From: Candidatus Omnitrophota bacterium | GTDB taxonomy: Bacteria; Omnitrophota; Gorgyraeia; Duberdicusellales; 4484-171 | DNA: 48,009 bases | Assembly (NCBI GenBank): GCA_023134705.1 | Contig: JAGLUN010000024.1 | Span: 1 to 48,009, forward strand | Direction of reading: 5' to 3' | Shown: positions 28,656 to 46,013 of the stretch, piece by piece | How the letters are laid out: the number at the start of each line of letters is the position of its first letter | How positions within the stretch are numbered: position 1 is the first letter of the stretch | Position numbers and translations under genes: made by a program | Notes under the pieces: generated by a model | What the model saw: only the letters and a program-made list of their open reading frames with translations | Database searches by the model: none | What the model was told of the DNA's origin: nothing

Positions 28656-28875
28656 CATTTTTTTTGACAGAGCGAAGGATTTGCTATCCACAATCAGTTT
28701 GGGGATTATGACAACGATATCGATTCTATTGCCGGTAAAAAGAATTTTAGCTTTAGGCTAACAGCTGACAATAAGTAAACCTTACCTTTACCTAATATAC
28801 TACATAATACTGTACTTGTATTTCGGCCTTACTTTCACCGCGTAGGTGAAAGTGTCGATTATACCAGGAGGGGGC
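28656..28875. other. intergenic region with a possible gene-tail remnant
   Basis: About 28660-28780 has two overlapping short forward readings that look partly protein-like (DLLSTISLGIMTTISILLPV in one frame, GDYDNDIDSIAGKKNFSFRL in another). Neither can be named, and one must be accidental. The rest is AT-rich and contains the hairpin at 28831-28853. Confidence 0.35.
28831..28853. promoter_or_regulatory. perfect 9-bp hairpin before the receiver gene
   Basis: Arms actttcacc and ggtgaaagt with a gcgta loop. It ends 22 bases before the chosen start (28876) of the receiver gene and has no T-run, so it is more likely a leader structure or operator than a terminator. It also covers an alternative GTG start at 28846. 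Confidence 0.45.
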
Positions 28876-29289
28876 ATGATACGCGGGTATGTGAGATACT
28901 TTTTATCAAAAAATGTTAAGGCAAGAAAGAAAATCTTAGTTATAGATGACGATAGAGTTATCCGCCGGCTTTTATTCTCATGTTTAAGGAAACAAGGATT
29001 CAAAGTGATTATTGCTAAAGACGGCAGGAAAGGACTAAAAAAGGTAAGGCAGCTGCTTCCTGACCTTGTTATCTTAGATTTAATGCTTCCTAAATTACCG
29101 GGTGAAGAGGTATGCAGGGAGATCAGAAGGGATCAGAATAATGTGCCGATTATTATGTTAACCGGTAAAGACAAAGATGTGGATAGGGTTGTTGGCAAGG
29201 TTATTGGAGCGAATTCATACATTACCAAGCCTTTTGATTTGCCAAAATTAATGGAGGAGGTAGATAGTTTGATTGGAGAACACAGATGA
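28876..29289 (+). CDS. stand-alone response regulator receiver domain
   Basis: 137 aa from ATG 28876 with aggagg (28866-28871) close upstream. After ~18 basic residues it is a single CheY-like receiver: KKILVIDDDRVIRRLLFSCL (acid pair at 24-26), LVILDLMLPKLPGEEV (phosphoacceptor Asp68), IIMLTGKD (Thr) and YITKPFD (Lys118). There is no output domain, so it signals through protein contact. No histidine kinase is in the window. A related receiver is fused to the sugar dehydratase 500 bases downstream, so the two may share a kinase. Confidence 0.85.
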   Translation: MIRGYVRYFLSKNVKARKKILVIDDDRVIRRLLFSCLRKQGFKVIIAKDGRKGLKKVRQLLPDLVILDLMLPKLPGEEVCREIRRDQNNVPIIMLTGKDKDVDRVVGKVIGANSYITKPFDLPKLMEEVDSLIGEHR

Positions 29290-29379: not shown

Positions 29380-29721
29380 AATAGTAACTGATAGAAAACG
29401 CTTTGGAATAACAAGGGACGAACTCTACGAGGCATTAAAGGCAGAAAACATCCAGACAAAAGAATATTTTTACCCTGCGGTTCATATGCAAAAGGCGTAT
29501 TTTTCATTAGGGGTTAAATATAAAGGTAAGCTTCCTGTTACTGAAAAGGCCGCAGACCGTTAGAGAACAAAGTTCTCTAACGGGGTTTAGCTTTACCTTT
29601 GTATGGACATACGGATCTGGAAGTGTTTGAGAAGGTCTGTTGGGCGATAAGGAGAATATACAGTTACAATCTCAGAGAACAGAGAACGGAAGATAGAGAG
29701 CAGATTGCAGGAAAAGTTTGA
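29380..29721 (+). pseudogene. 3' fragment of a DegT-family aminotransferase interrupted by a palindrome
   Basis: It begins SIVTDRKRFGITRDELYEAL then KAENIQTKEYFYPAVHMQ, KAYFSLGVKYKGKLPVTEKA, and stops at TAG (29561-29563). That stop lies in a 12-bp-arm palindrome (29557-29583). Beyond it, in another frame, the family sequence resumes as LALPLYGHTDLEVFEKV then CWAIRRIYSYNLRE, ending at 29721. Only the last third of an aminotransferase is present; 29290-29380 has no recognisable protein and carries a gtcccc/ggggac pair. Confidence 0.75.
29557..29583. repeat. palindromic element ccgttagagaac-aaa-gttctctaacgg
   Basis: Perfect 12-bp arms with a three-base loop, followed by ggt. It interrupts the DegT remnant and shifts its frame. 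The arm sequence (ccgttaga ... tctaacgg) is shared with the hairpins at 41728-41820 and with a half site at 40492-40510, so this is one family of palindromes. Confidence 0.75.
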
Positions 29722-29793: not shown

Positions 29794-32100
29794 ATGAATA
29801 GATATAAAATTAGCTGGCAGGAAAATCTGGTTTTTCTAACTGATATAGTTATTATTATTTTTTGTTATACTGCCGCTTTTTTTATAAGGTTTGACGGGGT
29901 GCTGTCTTTAGAATATTTTTCAATAACTTTAAAAACACTGCCTTTAGTGATTGTTTTTAGGACCGCGGCTTTGATGTATTTTAAACTTCATAAGAGTATA
30001 CGCGAGTACGCGAGTATAAAAGATTTAACCCAGATAATTAAAGCGGTGACTGTAAGTTCGGTGGTCGTTGTTGCCGGCATTATGACCTTTCGGCTTGAGG
30101 GGTTTCCTCGTTCTATTTTTATTATCGATTGGCTCTTGCTCGTTATCGCCTTGAGCGGAACGCGCTTCATTATCCGTCTTAGCAGGCCTATAAGAAACCG
30201 CAGGGAAAACGGTAATGGCCGGCCTAAAAAAGTTCTTATTGTGGGCGCCGGTGACGCCGGTGAGATGATATTGCGGGAAATGATTTACCACTATGGCCAT
30301 AATTATAAAGTTGTGGGTTTAGTTGATGATAACCCTAAGAAATATAGAAGGTGTATCCATGGAGTCACGGTTTTAGGCGCAAGGGTAGATATTCCCGATA
30401 TTGTAAACAAGAGGCATGTTCAAGAGATTGTTATTACGATTCCCTCTCTTAAATCTGATGAGATGCGGGATATCGTTAACTATTGTATAAAGAGCGGAGC
30501 AAAATACAGAACGGTCCCTGATATTTCAAACATAATGGATGGAACAGTAAAGGTAAAAGAATTACGAAAGGTAAAGATTGAAGATCTCCTCAATAGAGAG
30601 GAGGTGTTTTTGGACAGACAGAAGATAGGGAGCTATATTAAAGACAAATGCGTGCTTATTACAGGCGCGGGAGGCTCAATTGGCTCTGAAGTTTGCCGGC
30701 AGGTGGCAAGATTTTCGCCTAAAGAATTAGTTCTTTTTGAGAAATCGGAAAATTCACTCTTTTATATAAACATGGAATTGGAGCAGTTTTTTAGCAGTTT
30801 GAAGAAGGTTCCTGTTGTAGGCGATATGTGTGACCGAAAAAGAGTAAAAGAAGTTTTTTTAGAACACAAACCGCAGATTATATTTCATGCGGCGGCCCAC
30901 AAGCATGTTCCGCTTATGGAAACCAATTCTATGGAAGCGATTAAAAATAATGTTTTTGGAACCAGAATAATTGCTGAAGAAGCCATTGCTATCGGCGCGG
31001 AGAGGTTTATTATGCTCTCCACCGATAAGGTAGTTGAGCCAAAGAGTCTTATGGGGGTATCAAAGAAGATTGCGGAGATGTATATAACTGCTCTTGCCGG
31101 GATAAATAGGACAAAGTTTATGGCCGTGAGATTTGGCAATGTTTTGGGAAGCGAGGGAAGCGTTATACCTACGTTTAAAAAACAAATAGAAAAAAGAGGC
31201 CCAATTACAATTACTCATCCGGAAATCAAAAGATATTTTATGACCATACCGGAAGCCGCAGGGCTGGTATTAGAAGCCGGTTTTATGGGTGAAGGAAGAG
31301 AAATATTTATTTTGGAAATGGGAAGGCAGATAAAGATAATAGATTTAGCTCATGATTTAATAAGACTCTCTGGATTGGAGCCGAATAAAGATATCGAAAT
31401 ATTATTTACCGGTCTTCGGCCGGGCGAAAAAATGCACGAGGCTCTTGTTGAGGTGGATGAGAAATTAAAGAAGACGAGCCATGAAAAAATATTGGTTGTG
31501 GAGGCTTCAAGAAAGAATGGGCGCGGCATTTTGGAAGACATAAAAATATTAGAAAAAATAGTCAATATAGGAGATATGAATATCCTGTTGAAGAAACTCA
31601 AGCAGATAGTGCCGATGTATACTCCGAGCCTCCGGATTCTTGGAATTCGGAAGGAAGAGAAGCCGCAGCGCAGGGAAACAAAGATTATGATAGTTGATGA
31701 TGAGAAAATAGTCCAGGAATTCCTGAGTAAATTTTTAGAAGGTAGAGGATATAATACGCTTTTGGCCTCTAATGGCAGAGACGCACTGGAGATTATTAAA
31801 GGCAATGATGTGCGCATCGCAATTGTTGATATAAGGCTTTCAGGCTTTATGGATGGGATTAAGATTCTTAAACATATAAAAAAGACAAATAAAAATATCG
31901 GGGTAATAATTATTACTGGATTTGGGACTGAGAAGACAAGGAAACTTAGCAATCGCTTAGGCGCTTACGCTTATATTGAAAAACCCTTAGATCTTCCGGA
32001 TATCAAGAGGCAGGTGGAGGGTATTTTGAATGCGCACCTGCCTGCCGCAGCAGGGATGATCATAGATAAAAAAGGAGGAGAATTGGTATGGTCCCGATAG
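29794..32100 (+). CDS. WbpM/FlaA1-type NDP-sugar 4,6-dehydratase fused to a receiver domain
   Basis: 768 aa. Residues ~1-130 hold about four membrane helices; ~145-265 a Rossmann domain (VLIVGAGDAGEMILREM); ~285-600 the dehydratase core with GAGGSIGSEVCRQ (~290), HAAAHKHVPLMETN, STDKVVEPKSLMGVSKKIAE (Met420-x3-Lys424, the Met-for-Tyr form typical of this group), MAVRFGNVLGSEGSVIP and GLRPGEKMHEAL. This converts UDP-GlcNAc to a UDP-4-keto-6-deoxy sugar. Residues ~630-750 are a complete receiver: Asp635/636, phosphoacceptor Asp679 in IAIVDIRLSG, Thr in IIITGFG, and Lys730. Normal family length is ~600-660, so the receiver is an addition. rpoN starts inside the last codons. Initiator ATG follows aggtaataat, a weak site. 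Confidence 0.92.
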   Translation: MNRYKISWQENLVFLTDIVIIIFCYTAAFFIRFDGVLSLEYFSITLKTLPLVIVFRTAALMYFKLHKSIREYASIKDLTQIIKAVTVSSVVVVAGIMTFRLEGFPRSIFIIDWLLLVIALSGTRFIIRLSRPIRNRRENGNGRPKKVLIVGAGDAGEMILREMIYHYGHNYKVVGLVDDNPKKYRRCIHGVTVLGARVDIPDIVNKRHVQEIVITIPSLKSDEMRDIVNYCIKSGAKYRTVPDISNIMDGTVKVKELRKVKIEDLLNREEVFLDRQKIGSYIKDKCVLITGAGGSIGSEVCRQVARFSPKELVLFEKSENSLFYINMELEQFFSSLKKVPVVGDMCDRKRVKEVFLEHKPQIIFHAAAHKHVPLMETNSMEAIKNNVFGTRIIAEEAIAIGAERFIMLSTDKVVEPKSLMGVSKKIAEMYITALAGINRTKFMAVRFGNVLGSEGSVIPTFKKQIEKRGPITITHPEIKRYFMTIPEAAGLVLEAGFMGEGREIFILEMGRQIKIIDLAHDLIRLSGLEPNKDIEILFTGLRPGEKMHEALVEVDEKLKKTSHEKILVVEASRKNGRGILEDIKILEKIVNIGDMNILLKKLKQIVPMYTPSLRILGIRKEEKPQRRETKIMIVDDEKIVQEFLSKFLEGRGYNTLLASNGRDALEIIKGNDVRIAIVDIRLSGFMDGIKILKHIKKTNKNIGVIIITGFGTEKTRKLSNRLGAYAYIEKPLDLPDIKRQVEGILNAHLPAAAGMIIDKKGGELVWSR

Positions 32101-33476
32101 ATATGAGTTCAGAAAATGTTCAGAAGATGATGCTTACGCCTAAGATGCTTTTAAGCATGCACGTATTGCAGCTTAACCTTATGGATTTAAGAATGTTTAT
32201 GCAGGCAGAGTTAGAAGAAAATCCTCTTCTTGAAGAAGAGGGGCAAGAGGTTTTGCCTGATAAGGATGAGATTAAGCTTGATAAAGAGCTTTCAATGCTT
32301 ATTGATGAGGATTTAGAAGGCCAGGATTTACATCTAGACGTAGATGAGAGGCCTTACAACATTAGTGAAGAAAAAAGATGCTATTTAGGAAGTCTGATTA
32401 TGAAAAAGGAAAGCCTCTATGAACATCTTCATTGGCAATTAGAAATATTAGCCAAGAATGATGAAGAAAAGCGAATAGGCGAGTTTATAATTGGTAATCT
32501 TGATGACAATGGTTTTCTGAATATGGATTTAGACCGGATGCGCGAGAAAATCGGCGCAGATATTGAAAATTTCAAGCGCGCCCTTTCTCTGGTAAGAAGT
32601 TTTGATCCTATTGGCGTAGGAGCGCGTAATATAGAGGAAGCCCTGCTGATACAGCTTATCTTTAGCGGCAAAGGAGATACGCATCTATACAGAATAGTTT
32701 ATTCGTATTTGGAGGATTTGGAGAAAGGAAATTATGAGAGGATTGCGCGCGCCATTTCTGTTTCACTCAAAGAAGTTAAAAAAGCTAAAAGGAGAATAGC
32801 TCATCTTAATCCCAGGCCCGGTGCTGCTTTTGGCGGAGAGGCGGCCAGTCGTATAGAACCGGATGTTTTCTTATCTAAAAATAATGGCTCTTATGATGCC
32901 CAAGTAAATGAACAAGGCCTGCCCAGGCTTGGAATAAACCGTTTTTATAAGAGTATCTTAAGAGAAAAAAAAGCGCCTAAAGAAACAAAGGAATATATAA
33001 AAAAGAAGCTATTAAATGCCCGCTGGGTTATCAATGCGGTAAGACAGAGAACGAACACAGTTACTCGAGTTTGTGAGTATTTATCTGAAGCACAAAAAGG
33101 TTTTTTAGAGAGCGGTGATCTCGCCGCGAAACCCTTGACCTTAAAACAGGCGGCAAGCGCCCTTTCTGTAAGTGAAGCTACTGTAAGTAGAGTTGTTTCT
33201 AATAAATATGCCCATATACTTAATAGGCTATTCGCGCTCAAAGACTTTTTTGCCGGAGCTATAAAAACAATGGATGGCAATATTGTCTCCGACAGATCTA
33301 TCAAGCAAAGAATACAAAATTTTATTGAGCAAGAAGATGTTGAGAGGCCTTTAAGCGACGAAAGGATAACTTCAGCTCTTAAAAAGGAAGGCGTCAATAT
33401 TGCCCGCCGCACCGTAGCTAAGTATAGAGATAGCCTAAAGATATTACCCTTTAATCTGCGTAGAAAACACAGATGA
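32088..33476 (+). CDS. rpoN: RNA polymerase sigma-54 factor
   Basis: 462 aa, strong aaaggaggag (32071-32080) seven bases before the ATG, overlapping the dehydratase-receiver gene by 13 nt. Region I: LTPKMLLSMHVLQLNLMDLR, which receives activator contacts; an acidic region II (~45-75); a core-binding region; HTH LTLKQAASALSVSEATVSRV near 345-365 followed by FALKDFF; and the RpoN box ARRTVAKYR at ~440-449 that reads the -24 element. It directs sigma-54 to promoters that need bacterial enhancer-binding activators; none is in the window. Its place next to polysaccharide genes recalls known sigma-54 control of exopolysaccharide. Confidence 0.95.
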   Translation: MVPIDMSSENVQKMMLTPKMLLSMHVLQLNLMDLRMFMQAELEENPLLEEEGQEVLPDKDEIKLDKELSMLIDEDLEGQDLHLDVDERPYNISEEKRCYLGSLIMKKESLYEHLHWQLEILAKNDEEKRIGEFIIGNLDDNGFLNMDLDRMREKIGADIENFKRALSLVRSFDPIGVGARNIEEALLIQLIFSGKGDTHLYRIVYSYLEDLEKGNYERIARAISVSLKEVKKAKRRIAHLNPRPGAAFGGEAASRIEPDVFLSKNNGSYDAQVNEQGLPRLGINRFYKSILREKKAPKETKEYIKKKLLNARWVINAVRQRTNTVTRVCEYLSEAQKGFLESGDLAAKPLTLKQAASALSVSEATVSRVVSNKYAHILNRLFALKDFFAGAIKTMDGNIVSDRSIKQRIQNFIEQEDVERPLSDERITSALKKEGVNIARRTVAKYRDSLKILPFNLRRKHR

Positions 33477-42124: not shown

Positions 42125-43942
42125 ATGGATAAGATATACTTTTTAGCAAAGACAACAGAAAAATTCCTTAATTTTTTACCTTTAGGTTTTTCTCTTTATT
42201 TGGGGAAGCTTGTAGGAATTTATTTCTATTATTTTGATAAAAAGAAGAGGAGAAATGCCTTTGTGAATATTAAACAGGTATTCCCTCATAAATCCAATAA
42301 AGAGCTTTTTTCTATTATTAGAAAGAGCTTTGTGTCTTTCGGGATGAGCCTGGTTGAACTTTTTTTGATAGATAAGATGAAAGAAAGAGTTTCCCTGGAG
42401 TTTAAAGAGAGCCGGTTCCCTTCCGGGCATATTTTTGTGGGTATCCATGGCGGCAGTTGGGAGGTTTACAGCGCCCGCTTAGCGGGGATTCTTAATTACG
42501 CGGTTTTTGCCAGGAAGCAGAAGAATAAGTCTTTAGATGTGTTCCTGAATGAGTTGAGAAAAAGAAGTAACATCAGGGCATGTTTTTCACTTAGAGAATT
42601 CGTTAGTATGATTAAAAAAGGGTTTTGGGTGACGGTGGTTATTGACCATGGTGCCGAAGAAAAAGCTCAATTTGTAAATTTTTTTAATAAATTAGTCCCT
42701 ACGCCCGGAGGTGCCGTATACTTAGCTAAAAAGTTTAATAGAAAGATATTCCCGAGTTTTGGCTACCGGAAAGGAACCCGGCACAGGCTTATTATAGGGG
42801 AGCCTATAGATTGCCGGGATGGAGAGGAAAAAGATATCTTGGAGAAGTTGAACCGGATTTATGAAAAATACATATCTTCATATCCTTCTCAATATCTTTG
42901 GTGGTATAAGCGTTTTAAGAAAAAAAAGAGCCGGAAAATTTTAATCTTAAGCGATAATAAAACAGGACATCTTACGCAATCTCTATCTTTATTGGAAATT
43001 CTTAGAGAGAGTGATTATAGAATAGAGGAAGAAATTATGACTCTAAAGTATAAAAATAGATTCACGCGTGCTTTAGCGGAAATTATTGCTCTATCTTCCG
43101 GGAAGCTGTGCCTGGGATGCGGGAAGTGTTTGAGATTCTTATTAGAGAAGGAATCTTTTCAATTTTTAAACAAAAGATTTTTTGATATAGTAATAAGTAC
43201 AGGATCGTTCCTTGCTTCGGTCAATCTTATTTATTCCCGTAGCTTAGGGGCAAAATCCTGCGTAATTTTAAAGCCTAATTTGCCGGTTTCAAAATTTGAT
43301 TTAGCCGTAATCCCTGAACATGACCGCATAAAAGCCGGAAATGTGATAAATGTAAAAGGGGCTTTAGCTAATTTTGATAATCCGGAGAAAAAAATAAAAG
43401 AAGGGAAGGATTTTTTTAATTTAAGCGAAGGTAAAAAGATATCCCTGTTCTTGGGTAACTTTTTGAACCAGGGAGAAATATTCCTTTCCAATTTGAAAGT
43501 ATTTCTAAGGAGATTAAAGGAGTTTTCTTTAAAGGAGGATTATAAGCTTCTTGTTACTACTTCCCGGAGAACATCTTTGCCGGCCGAGAAAATCCTTAAA
43601 GATGAATTGTCTGGTTTTAAAAATACCGAGGCCGCGGTTTTCGTGAGAGAAAAGAATTATCCTTTTGTTGTAGCGGTTTTCCTTGCCTTTAGTGATATCG
43701 TTTTCGTTTCCGCTGAGAGCGTCTCGATGATTTCCGAAAGCCTGAATTTGGGCAAGACCACAGTGAGTGTGTTTCTGGAGAAGGTAGAAGGCCGTCATAA
43801 GGAATTTCTTTCCTCTTTAAAAGACGGTTTTGTGAATTTTTTAGATTATCCCTATGATGATTTTAGTTTTGATACGCCGAAGAAATCGCTGTATCAAGAA
43901 AATCGTTCATGCCTTAAAAAGGCACAGGAAATGCTGTTCTAA
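42125..43942 (+). CDS. LpxL/HtrB-type lipid A acyltransferase fused to an ELM1-like domain
   Basis: 605 aa. Residues 1-~265 are a lysophospholipid/lipid A late acyltransferase: membrane start LPLGFSLYLGKLVGIYFYYF, RRNAFVNIKQVFPHKSNKEL, FVGIHGGSWEVYSARLAG with the H-x4-E motif at ~107-112, VTVVIDHGAEEK and TPGGAVYLAKKF. Residues ~270-605 match the ELM1/GtrOC1-like family (Mito_fiss_Elm1): ILILSDNKTGHLTQSLSLLE, IVISTGSFLASVNLIYSRSL, KPNLPVSKFDLAVIPEHDRI and FVSAESVSMISESLNLGKTT. Members look like GT-B glycosyltransferases and occur in LPS loci. One polypeptide may therefore acylate and glycosylate lipid A; the second activity is inference. Confidence 0.88.
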   Translation: MDKIYFLAKTTEKFLNFLPLGFSLYLGKLVGIYFYYFDKKKRRNAFVNIKQVFPHKSNKELFSIIRKSFVSFGMSLVELFLIDKMKERVSLEFKESRFPSGHIFVGIHGGSWEVYSARLAGILNYAVFARKQKNKSLDVFLNELRKRSNIRACFSLREFVSMIKKGFWVTVVIDHGAEEKAQFVNFFNKLVPTPGGAVYLAKKFNRKIFPSFGYRKGTRHRLIIGEPIDCRDGEEKDILEKLNRIYEKYISSYPSQYLWWYKRFKKKKSRKILILSDNKTGHLTQSLSLLEILRESDYRIEEEIMTLKYKNRFTRALAEIIALSSGKLCLGCGKCLRFLLEKESFQFLNKRFFDIVISTGSFLASVNLIYSRSLGAKSCVILKPNLPVSKFDLAVIPEHDRIKAGNVINVKGALANFDNPEKKIKEGKDFFNLSEGKKISLFLGNFLNQGEIFLSNLKVFLRRLKEFSLKEDYKLLVTTSRRTSLPAEKILKDELSGFKNTEAAVFVREKNYPFVVAVFLAFSDIVFVSAESVSMISESLNLGKTTVSVFLEKVEGRHKEFLSSLKDGFVNFLDYPYDDFSFDTPKKSLYQENRSCLKKAQEMLF

Positions 43943-43961
43943 AGAGAATAGTTATATTGAT

Positions 43962-46013
43962 ATGAAAATAATGCAAATATTACCCAAGGTGAATTTAGGC
44001 GGTGTGGAGAGGGGAGTTTTGGACTTAAGTAAGTGTTCTAAAGATAAAACCGTGGTAGTTTCGGGTGGAGGGAGATTAGTCGAAGAATTAAAAACGGCCG
44101 GAGTAATTCATTATACTTTGCCTGTTTACAAAAAATCTTTTTCCAGCCTTTTTTTGATTGGGAAGATAAAAAAGATAATTAAGAAAGAAAGCGTCGAAAT
44201 CGTACACGCGCGTTCACGTGTTCCCGCCTGGATTAGTTTTTTCGCGACTCGTAATTTGGATGCCGATTTTATTACTACCGCGCACGGAGTTTATTCAAAA
44301 CATATTCTTAGTGAAGTTATGGGGTGGGGAAAGTTTGTTATCTGTCCTTCTAAGGTGATTGCCCGCCATATGATGCAAAACTTCGGGGTGGATGAAGAAA
44401 AGATCAAAATAATAACTCGTTGGGTAGATTTGGATAAATTTAAATTTAAAGACCCGAAAGAGAGGCTTACAAGTAATTCTATCGTAAGTATTGGAAGAAT
44501 TTCTCCTTCTAAAGGGTTTGAGTATCTTATTGAAGCTTTTCGCGAAGTCATTAGAACCAACCCTTATTTAACTTTGAATATCGTGGGAGAACCGGAAGAG
44601 AAGAAATTAAAATATTTTGAATATTTAAAAAGTTTAGTCCGGCGTTATTCCTTGAACTATAGTGTTAAATTTTTGGGATTCAAAGGTGATGTAGAAAGAG
44701 TTTTAAATAATTCTTTGCTCTTAGTTGTTCCCTCAGTGGTGGAAGAAGCCTTTGGCCGGGTAGTTATAGAGGCTTTTGCCTGCGGTGTGCCTGTTATAGC
44801 TACTAAATCCGGGGCTTTGGAAGAAATTATAAAGCATAGAGAGGATGGTATGCTGGTTTTGCCGCGTAATCCCGGTAATTTAGCAGAGACCATCCGGGAA
44901 GTTGCGAATAATCTGCCTTTAGCAAGGAAATTAGCTTTGAATGCCCGCAAAAAGGCGGAAAAACTTTATTCTTTAAGCAGTTGTGTTTCCCGGATAGAGG
45001 AGGTATATCGAGAAGTTAAAGAATTTAAGCGGATTTTAGTTATAAAAATCTCTTCCTTAGGTGATTTAATTTTGGCTTTACCTTCACTTAAAGCGATAAA
45101 AGAAACTTTCCCCAAAAGTAAGTTAGTGCTTTTAACTTTGAAAAAGCATACTCCTTTATGTTACGGATGTCCGTATATCGATAAAGTGATCGGCATAAAT
45201 TTTGATTACAAAAAGATAAAAAATATTTTTAATATTGCCAAAAATTTACGCCGGCAAAGTTTTGATTACATAATAGATTTCCAAAATAATCCGGTATCGC
45301 ATTTAATCACTTTTTTCAGTTTCCCCCGGAGATCTTTCGGGTATGCCCGGAAATTAGGATTTCTTTTGACTTCCCGGGAGAAAATATCTCCAAAAAAGAT
45401 TTCTCCTTTAGATTCTCAGGAAAAGATTTTAAAGCTTTTAGGAATAAGGTTTAAGGAAAAAAAGTTAACTTTTTGGAAGATAGAACCGGCATCTTTAGAG
45501 CATTTTGGGATAAAAGATAAAGACAGACTTATCGGGATAAATATTTCCGCTTCAAAAAAGTGGCGCAGTAAAAACTGGCCTCTTGAGAATACCAAAAAAT
45601 TAATCGGGTTTATATCAAAAGAGATGGGTAACTTTAAAGTAGTTCTTCTCGGGGACCGGGATAGTATGGATTTGAGCAGAGGAATAGAGGTCTTTTTTAA
45701 GAAAAAGATTATTAATCTCTGCGGTAAAACCAGCTTGAGAGATTTAACCCAAGTTTTAAAAAGATTGAATCTTTTTGTCTGTCAGGATACGGCTTCTCTG
45801 CATCTTGCTTTATCTTTAGGGATAGAAACAATAGGTTTATTCGGCCCCACGGACCCTTTGAAACATACGGTAAAAGACAAAAAACTCCATGTATTTTTAA
45901 AGAAAATGCCCTGCTCTTTTTGCTATAAACCCGGCTGTAAAAATAATATCTGCATGAAAAAGATAACTCCCCAAGAGGTATTCGTGCAGATAAAGCAGAT
46001 ATTAGGACGATGA
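43962..46013 (+). CDS. GT4-GT9 bifunctional glycosyltransferase
   Basis: 683 aa from ATG 43962, chosen because family sequence (KIMQILPKVNLGGVERGVLD) begins there and because an earlier start would lie deep in the previous gene. Residues 1-~350 are GT4: SIVSIGRISPSKGFEYLIEA, LNIVGEPEEKK, VVPSVVEEAFGRVVIEAF with E-x7-E, and GVPVIATKSGALEE. Residues ~355-683 are GT9: FKRILVIKISSLGDLILALP, IGINISASKKWRSKNWP and VCQDTASLHLALSLGIETIG. Both halves look complete. They would add two successive core sugars, the second possibly a heptose. Confidence 0.88.
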   Translation: MKIMQILPKVNLGGVERGVLDLSKCSKDKTVVVSGGGRLVEELKTAGVIHYTLPVYKKSFSSLFLIGKIKKIIKKESVEIVHARSRVPAWISFFATRNLDADFITTAHGVYSKHILSEVMGWGKFVICPSKVIARHMMQNFGVDEEKIKIITRWVDLDKFKFKDPKERLTSNSIVSIGRISPSKGFEYLIEAFREVIRTNPYLTLNIVGEPEEKKLKYFEYLKSLVRRYSLNYSVKFLGFKGDVERVLNNSLLLVVPSVVEEAFGRVVIEAFACGVPVIATKSGALEEIIKHREDGMLVLPRNPGNLAETIREVANNLPLARKLALNARKKAEKLYSLSSCVSRIEEVYREVKEFKRILVIKISSLGDLILALPSLKAIKETFPKSKLVLLTLKKHTPLCYGCPYIDKVIGINFDYKKIKNIFNIAKNLRRQSFDYIIDFQNNPVSHLITFFSFPRRSFGYARKLGFLLTSREKISPKKISPLDSQEKILKLLGIRFKEKKLTFWKIEPASLEHFGIKDKDRLIGINISASKKWRSKNWPLENTKKLIGFISKEMGNFKVVLLGDRDSMDLSRGIEVFFKKKIINLCGKTSLRDLTQVLKRLNLFVCQDTASLHLALSLGIETIGLFGPTDPLKHTVKDKKLHVFLKKMPCSFCYKPGCKNNICMKKITPQEVFVQIKQILGR

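Follow-up and report, generated by a model that had tools for sequence, protein, structure and literature searches.

The window analysed here, a stretch of 48,009 nucleotides, is contig C17 of a genome of 1.41 Mb that is assembled in 94 contigs and has an estimated completeness of 91%. It is a surface-polysaccharide region, containing genes for glycosyltransferases, DegT aminotransferases, a PglC-type sugar transferase and a flippase, as well as lipid A/KDO genes. Among the genes of the window there are two apparent natural fusions, one of a lipid A acyltransferase with an ELM1-like domain (42125-43942) and the other of a GT4 glycosyltransferase with a GT9 heptosyltransferase (43854-46013), which overlap by ~90 bases in different frames.

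A single open reading frame at 29794-32100 (+ strand, as are the genes and domains of the window located below) encodes a protein of 768 residues in which a sugar-nucleotide dehydratase is fused to the receiver domain of response regulators. The frame starts with ATG and is free of stops throughout, both alternative frames are closed by stops at the fusion junction, and the Pfam domains CoA_binding_3, Polysacc_synt_2 and Response_reg all pass their cutoffs. The initial annotation had the coordinates and frame of this gene right, and the residues that it named were confirmed, as Met420-x3-Lys424, Asp679, Thr708 and Lys730; its description of a complete dehydratase continued by a complete receiver is confirmed by the one open frame, the Pfam domains and the intact residues in both halves.

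The protein begins with a membrane region of four helices (residues 1-138, 29794-30207), evident from hydropathy and present in the AlphaFold model as helices 2-32, 39-62, 75-98 and 106-138. The protein also has a CoA_binding_3 domain (PF13727, residues 76-242, 30019-30519, Pfam 5.8e-15) and an SDR dehydratase core (PF02719, Polysacc_synt_2, residues 287-569, 30652-31500, Pfam 2.5e-113) that scores 378.6 bits against a curated cutoff of 20.2. The closest solved structures are those of Campylobacter jejuni PglF (8e-84, ~41% identity over the PglF core); the modelled core matches PglF entries 5bju/5bjw, with a target TM-score of 0.93 for the PglF match of the full-length AlphaFold model. The active site, T410-D411-K412 ... 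M420-x3-K424 (31021-31065), has the same spacing as T395/D396/K397/M405 of PglF, as these residues are named in the PDB entries. PglF and WbpM are UDP-GlcNAc 4,6-dehydratases in which Met replaces the catalytic Tyr within the motif TDKxnMx3K (PMC8987622). The PF02719 score, the TDK...Mx3K motif, the N-terminal membrane helices and PF13727 thus place the window protein in the PglF/WbpM class, whereas the soluble, C5-inverting Yx3K type of FlaA1 and PseB does not fit, given Met420 in place of Tyr, the membrane helices and an NCBIfam PseB score of 172 bits against a cutoff of 408. Of the label WbpM/FlaA1-type first given to the protein, only the former part can be kept, because FlaA1 and PseB have Yx3K. 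The dehydratase half is accordingly predicted to be an inner-membrane enzyme of the PglF/WbpM class, for which the family points to UDP-GlcNAc as the probable substrate.

The two halves are connected by a linker of ~20 residues (residues ~606-627, 31609-31674), which has low pLDDT and is 33% identical between the window protein and the other fusions described below, against 62-68% on the flanking parts. The receiver (PF00072, Response_reg, residues 631-741, 31684-32016, Pfam 3e-23) scores 82.5 bits against a cutoff of 30.2 and has all of its key residues intact, namely the acid pair D635/D636, D679, T708 and K730. When modelled alone, with 46 receivers, it adopted the (beta-alpha)5 fold (pLDDT 87.7), and the best PDB match of this model was the NtrX receiver (E 1.7e-11). 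A scan of genome contigs returned mostly ordinary receivers. Prediction of the structure of the fusion, which had been proposed as a check, was successful for the dehydratase core, as seen in the match to PglF; the receiver, by contrast, was poorly placed when the whole protein was modelled (pLDDT 42-68, from a shallow alignment), because few fused sequences exist, and therefore we claim no interface between the domains.

Distribution and conservation of the fusion

Searches for the fusion covered 58 relatives, 384 genomes of the phylum, 384 genomes of the class and the families of the carriers, amounting to ~500 distinct genomes; since the large scans scored the best two candidates per genome, weaker fusions may be missed. 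Two further complete joins were found, besides one candidate cut by a contig end. The entire fusion protein is present in G502 (locus L200), with 63% identity to the window copy, and G203 (locus L170) encodes residues 200-746 with 65% identity, its 5' side ending at the contig start. In G443 (locus L204) residues 1-410 are encoded with 70% identity and the contig ends before the position of the receiver, so that this copy counts only as a candidate fusion. Receiver-less homologues in the same families are 42-48% identical and all terminate near residue 612. In a maximum-likelihood tree the window protein groups with those of G203, G502 and G443 in a single clade (support 100/100) that is separate from every receiver-less sequence. 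Because its four members belong to four different families (f1, f4, f13 and f21), the clade suggests that the module was either spread horizontally or lost many times.

These joins bear on whether the fusion is a product of assembly, binning or a lone frameshift; the initial annotation had named as fatal to it an assembly or sequencing artefact, and a lone frameshift with the receiver a separate gene in close relatives. All genomes concerned are metagenome assemblies, and contig ends cut the copies of G203 and G443; yet the same join occurs in independent assemblies at 63-65% identity, the frame of the window gene is open, and none of the close relatives encodes this receiver as a gene of its own. 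An artefact or frameshift origin is thereby refuted, and we give this explanation almost no credence.

Wherever a copy extends over the catalytic and phosphorylation residues, it has kept all of them, including the counterparts of D635/D636, D679, T708 and K730 in L170 and L200. Between the two closest copies, G502 and G203 (dS 0.46-0.76), dN/dS was 0.138 in the receiver and 0.155 in the core, while the linker reached 0.417; the near-equal values of the two domains indicate that the receiver is constrained as strongly as the enzyme. By these sequence comparisons the fusion is real and maintained by selection. It could also be supposed that a single ancestral event joined two adjacent genes whose products have since worked independently, so that the fusion is functionally neutral, as the low identity of the linker (33%) and the lack of a predicted domain contact would allow. 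We consider this very improbable, given that the join has been kept since that ancestor in descendants from three families that share 63-65% identity, and that neither re-splitting nor, among the three fusion copies, a conserved internal start for a separately made receiver was seen.

The fusion was not found outside this group of genomes: none of the 60 best plasmid places had a match reaching the receiver; only four of 72,556 records, and no phage record, passed 80% coverage; no plasmid or phage record with this architecture was found; and no fusion was seen in 37 genomes, mainly of other phyla, to which named loci had led. Some candidates proved to be of another kind. Long frames in G005, G088, G085, G103, G099 and G153 are N-terminal sugar-transferase (Bac_transf) fusions and not receiver fusions (identified from the full sequence for L019, L171 and L172, and from matches for the others), and a 1015-residue frame of G530 is an out-of-gene read-through. 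Elsewhere in the phylum (L019, L171 and L172; also L173, L174 and L177) a PglF-type dehydratase carries an N-terminal PglC-type sugar transferase in a protein of 811-817 residues, which apparently unites two enzymes that act one after the other in the pathway.

The gene module and its second rpoN

The fusion gene belongs to a recurring module that comprises a stand-alone receiver, a WecA-type transferase, a DegT aminotransferase, a PilZ protein, the dehydratase-receiver protein and a second rpoN gene. In G443 the order is stand-alone receiver, WecA-type transferase (PF00953), intact DegT, PilZ protein and dehydratase. In the window the module is eroded upstream, with the transferase, the PilZ gene and most of DegT gone; the stand-alone receiver gene (28846-29289, Pfam 4.4e-29) is retained and its product is 84% identical to the receiver that heads the G443 module. 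What is left of DegT is a pseudogene (29381-29688) that has lost its 5' two thirds and contains a frameshift, matching the intact G443 protein at 81% over 59 residues before continuing in another frame. The DegT gene of G502 is likewise broken in frame at its 3' end. Given these losses and the DegT breaks in both genomes, the conserved nucleus of the module consists of the fusion and the second rpoN.

Inside the DegT pseudogene, at 29557-29583, there is a perfect palindrome, CCGTTAGAGAAC-NNN-GTTCTCTAACGG, that is also found twice on contig C34 (L191:5970-5992 and L208:673-695), one copy lying in frame within the gene of a histidine kinase. Upstream of the palindrome, the C34 copies have ~40 nt more in common. 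This sequence resembles small dispersed palindromic elements of the RPE/MITE kind.

The second sigma-54 gene (rpoN2, 32088-33476) encodes a protein with AID, core-binding and DNA-binding domains all present (TIGR02395, 370.9 bits against a cutoff of 277.35), which is distinct from the RpoN encoded on contig C58 (37.6% identity). Its start overlaps the stop of the fusion gene by 13 nt and the identical 13-nt overlap is found in G203, whereas in G502 a PMT-like glycosyltransferase gene lies between the two, rpoN being two genes downstream of the fusion. The initial annotation had noted neither this linkage nor the wider module. An origin in which an ancestral receiver-rpoN gene pair was later joined to the dehydratase was rejected, as a search of the relatives for a separate receiver gene immediately preceding rpoN found none.

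The rpoN linkage raises the question of whether the receiver acts chiefly in the sigma-54 branch, controlling or titrating RpoN2 or an activator, in such a way that the level of the enzyme, or the flux through it, would signal to transcription. The exact 13-nt overlap in two genomes, the position two genes downstream in a third and the resemblance of the receiver to those of the sigma-54 activators NtrX and AtoC agree with such a role. We nevertheless regard it as improbable: the glycosyltransferase gene separates fusion and rpoN in G502, and the window has no excess of -24/-12 sigma-54 promoter sites (24 seen, 27.6 expected). Receivers are also not known to act on sigma-54 in proteins that lack an AAA+ domain.

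Only two strong sigma-54 activators are encoded in the genome. One has a kinase gene next to it, close to the rpoN of C58; the other, on C47, is PrsR-like and adjoins a PrsK-like kinase and PEP-CTERM-like proteins. The occurrence together of these C47 genes (L180, L185 and L212), whose PEP-CTERM-like products carry PIPEPATILLLGSGL..., suggests a PEP-CTERM/exosortase system in the lineage. Proteobacteria use PrsK/PrsR and sigma-54 to regulate PEP-CTERM genes that are linked to exopolysaccharide (PMC1569441). PilZ and a receiver are paired once more on contig C84 (L210), where both lie close to a small kinase, downstream of a GspF-like gene.

Proposed control of the dehydratase

Starting from the observed domains, intact residues, conservation, selection and gene linkage, we propose that phosphorylation of the fused receiver sets dehydratase output at the level of the enzyme itself, alongside a dedicated sigma-54 factor. 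We hold this to be more probable than not; the substrate, the phosphorylation, the direction of its effect and the role of rpoN2 are what we infer in it. In this scheme, Asp679 of the C-terminal receiver would be phosphorylated and the shift of the alpha4-beta5-alpha5 face of the receiver would alter the oligomerisation, access or membrane clustering of the dehydratase, thereby setting its output. The UDP-4-keto-6-deoxy-HexNAc made by the dehydratase would pass to the DegT aminotransferase, so that a sugar of the bacillosamine type becomes available to surface polysaccharide, and the co-production of RpoN2 from the overlapping gene would allow sigma-54 to set transcription for the same process.

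The intact residues and the purifying selection in both halves are consistent with control at the enzyme level and lend partial support to the view of the initial annotation, in which a histidine kinase would gate precursor supply; we also cite in its favour the short, fast-evolving linker and the neighbouring genes for DegT, the WecA-type transferase, PilZ, the stand-alone receiver and RpoN2. The PF13727 domain of the related protein WbaP binds uridine nucleotides and has been proposed to be an allosteric regulator (PMC10942596), so that a second regulatory domain on an enzyme that already carries PF13727 is plausible. Three points count against such gating. The full-length model, with its poorly placed receiver, predicts no interface. 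WbpM is functional without its N-terminal region (PMC8987622), and therefore regulatory appendages are dispensable for catalysis. In addition, the module has no kinase gene. Seven kinases, CheA included, were found in the ~91% complete genome, on C10, C27, C34, C47, C58, C84 and C53, and six of them have a receiver gene nearby, the exception being the CheA on C53; we therefore assign no partner kinase, and the gene for the phosphodonor could lie in the missing 9%.

A different view is that catalysis is not gated at all, and that the dehydratase anchors or scaffolds the receiver at the site of polysaccharide assembly, for docking or as a phosphate sink, or else that a kinase recruits the enzyme. 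The receiver is closest to those of the Spo0F/NtrX type, some of which are purely phosphate relays, the linker is flexible and fast-evolving, and the module has a second, stand-alone receiver. We find this view unlikely, since a dehydratase whose active site is intact and constrained in all copies is more than an anchor. At the other extreme, the gating of the dehydratase that we favour may be part of a horizontally spreading module with one phosphorylation input and two outputs, one being direct allosteric gating through the fused receiver, the other the reprogramming of promoters by a dedicated, translationally coupled sigma-54, to which PilZ and the second receiver would add inputs. This wider proposal is tentative, and we remain rather doubtful of it.

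Relation to known systems

Two-component control of surface polysaccharides is usually placed at transcription or at c-di-GMP. With a receiver in a membrane dehydratase, phosphorylation would be expected to act directly on precursor supply, and an enzyme with both PF13727 and a receiver could combine metabolic feedback with an external signal. The rpoN linkage also offers a way to approach what duplicate sigma-54 factors do in bacteria that have not been cultured.

PglF of C. jejuni and WbpM of Pseudomonas aeruginosa share with the fusion the four-helix membrane region, PF13727 and the SDR core with TDK and Mx3K, but they have no receiver and end where the linker of the fusion starts. In the enzymatic-output response regulators described by Galperin and colleagues, receivers are likewise found on metabolic enzymes, which are thought to be placed in this way under environmental control (PMC5847659). 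The receiver of the fusion is C-terminal and is carried by a membrane enzyme. Many classical regulators with enzymatic output, CheB among them, carry their receiver at the N-terminus. Another protein of this kind, MTH_548 of Methanobacteriaceae, joins one or more receivers to a polysaccharide enzyme, a BcsA-like glycosyltransferase, and has a similarly narrow phyletic spread, although it is archaeal, from a methanogen, and a GT2-type transferase for which no link to rpoN is drawn (PMC5847659). Therefore, the early statement that no described enzyme with this architecture was known needs qualification: no description of the exact pairing was found in the open-licence literature, but receivers on metabolic enzymes were already on record, that on MTH_548 included. 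The regulation of PEP-CTERM/EpsH systems by PrsK/PrsR resembles the fusion module in tying two-component signalling and sigma-54 to exopolysaccharide (PMC1569441), but there the control is transcriptional, through an NtrC-type activator, and involves no enzyme fusion. Fusions of receivers to metabolic enzymes are thus already known, and what we regard as new here is a receiver on a membrane dehydratase of the PglF/WbpM type that is tied to its own rpoN.
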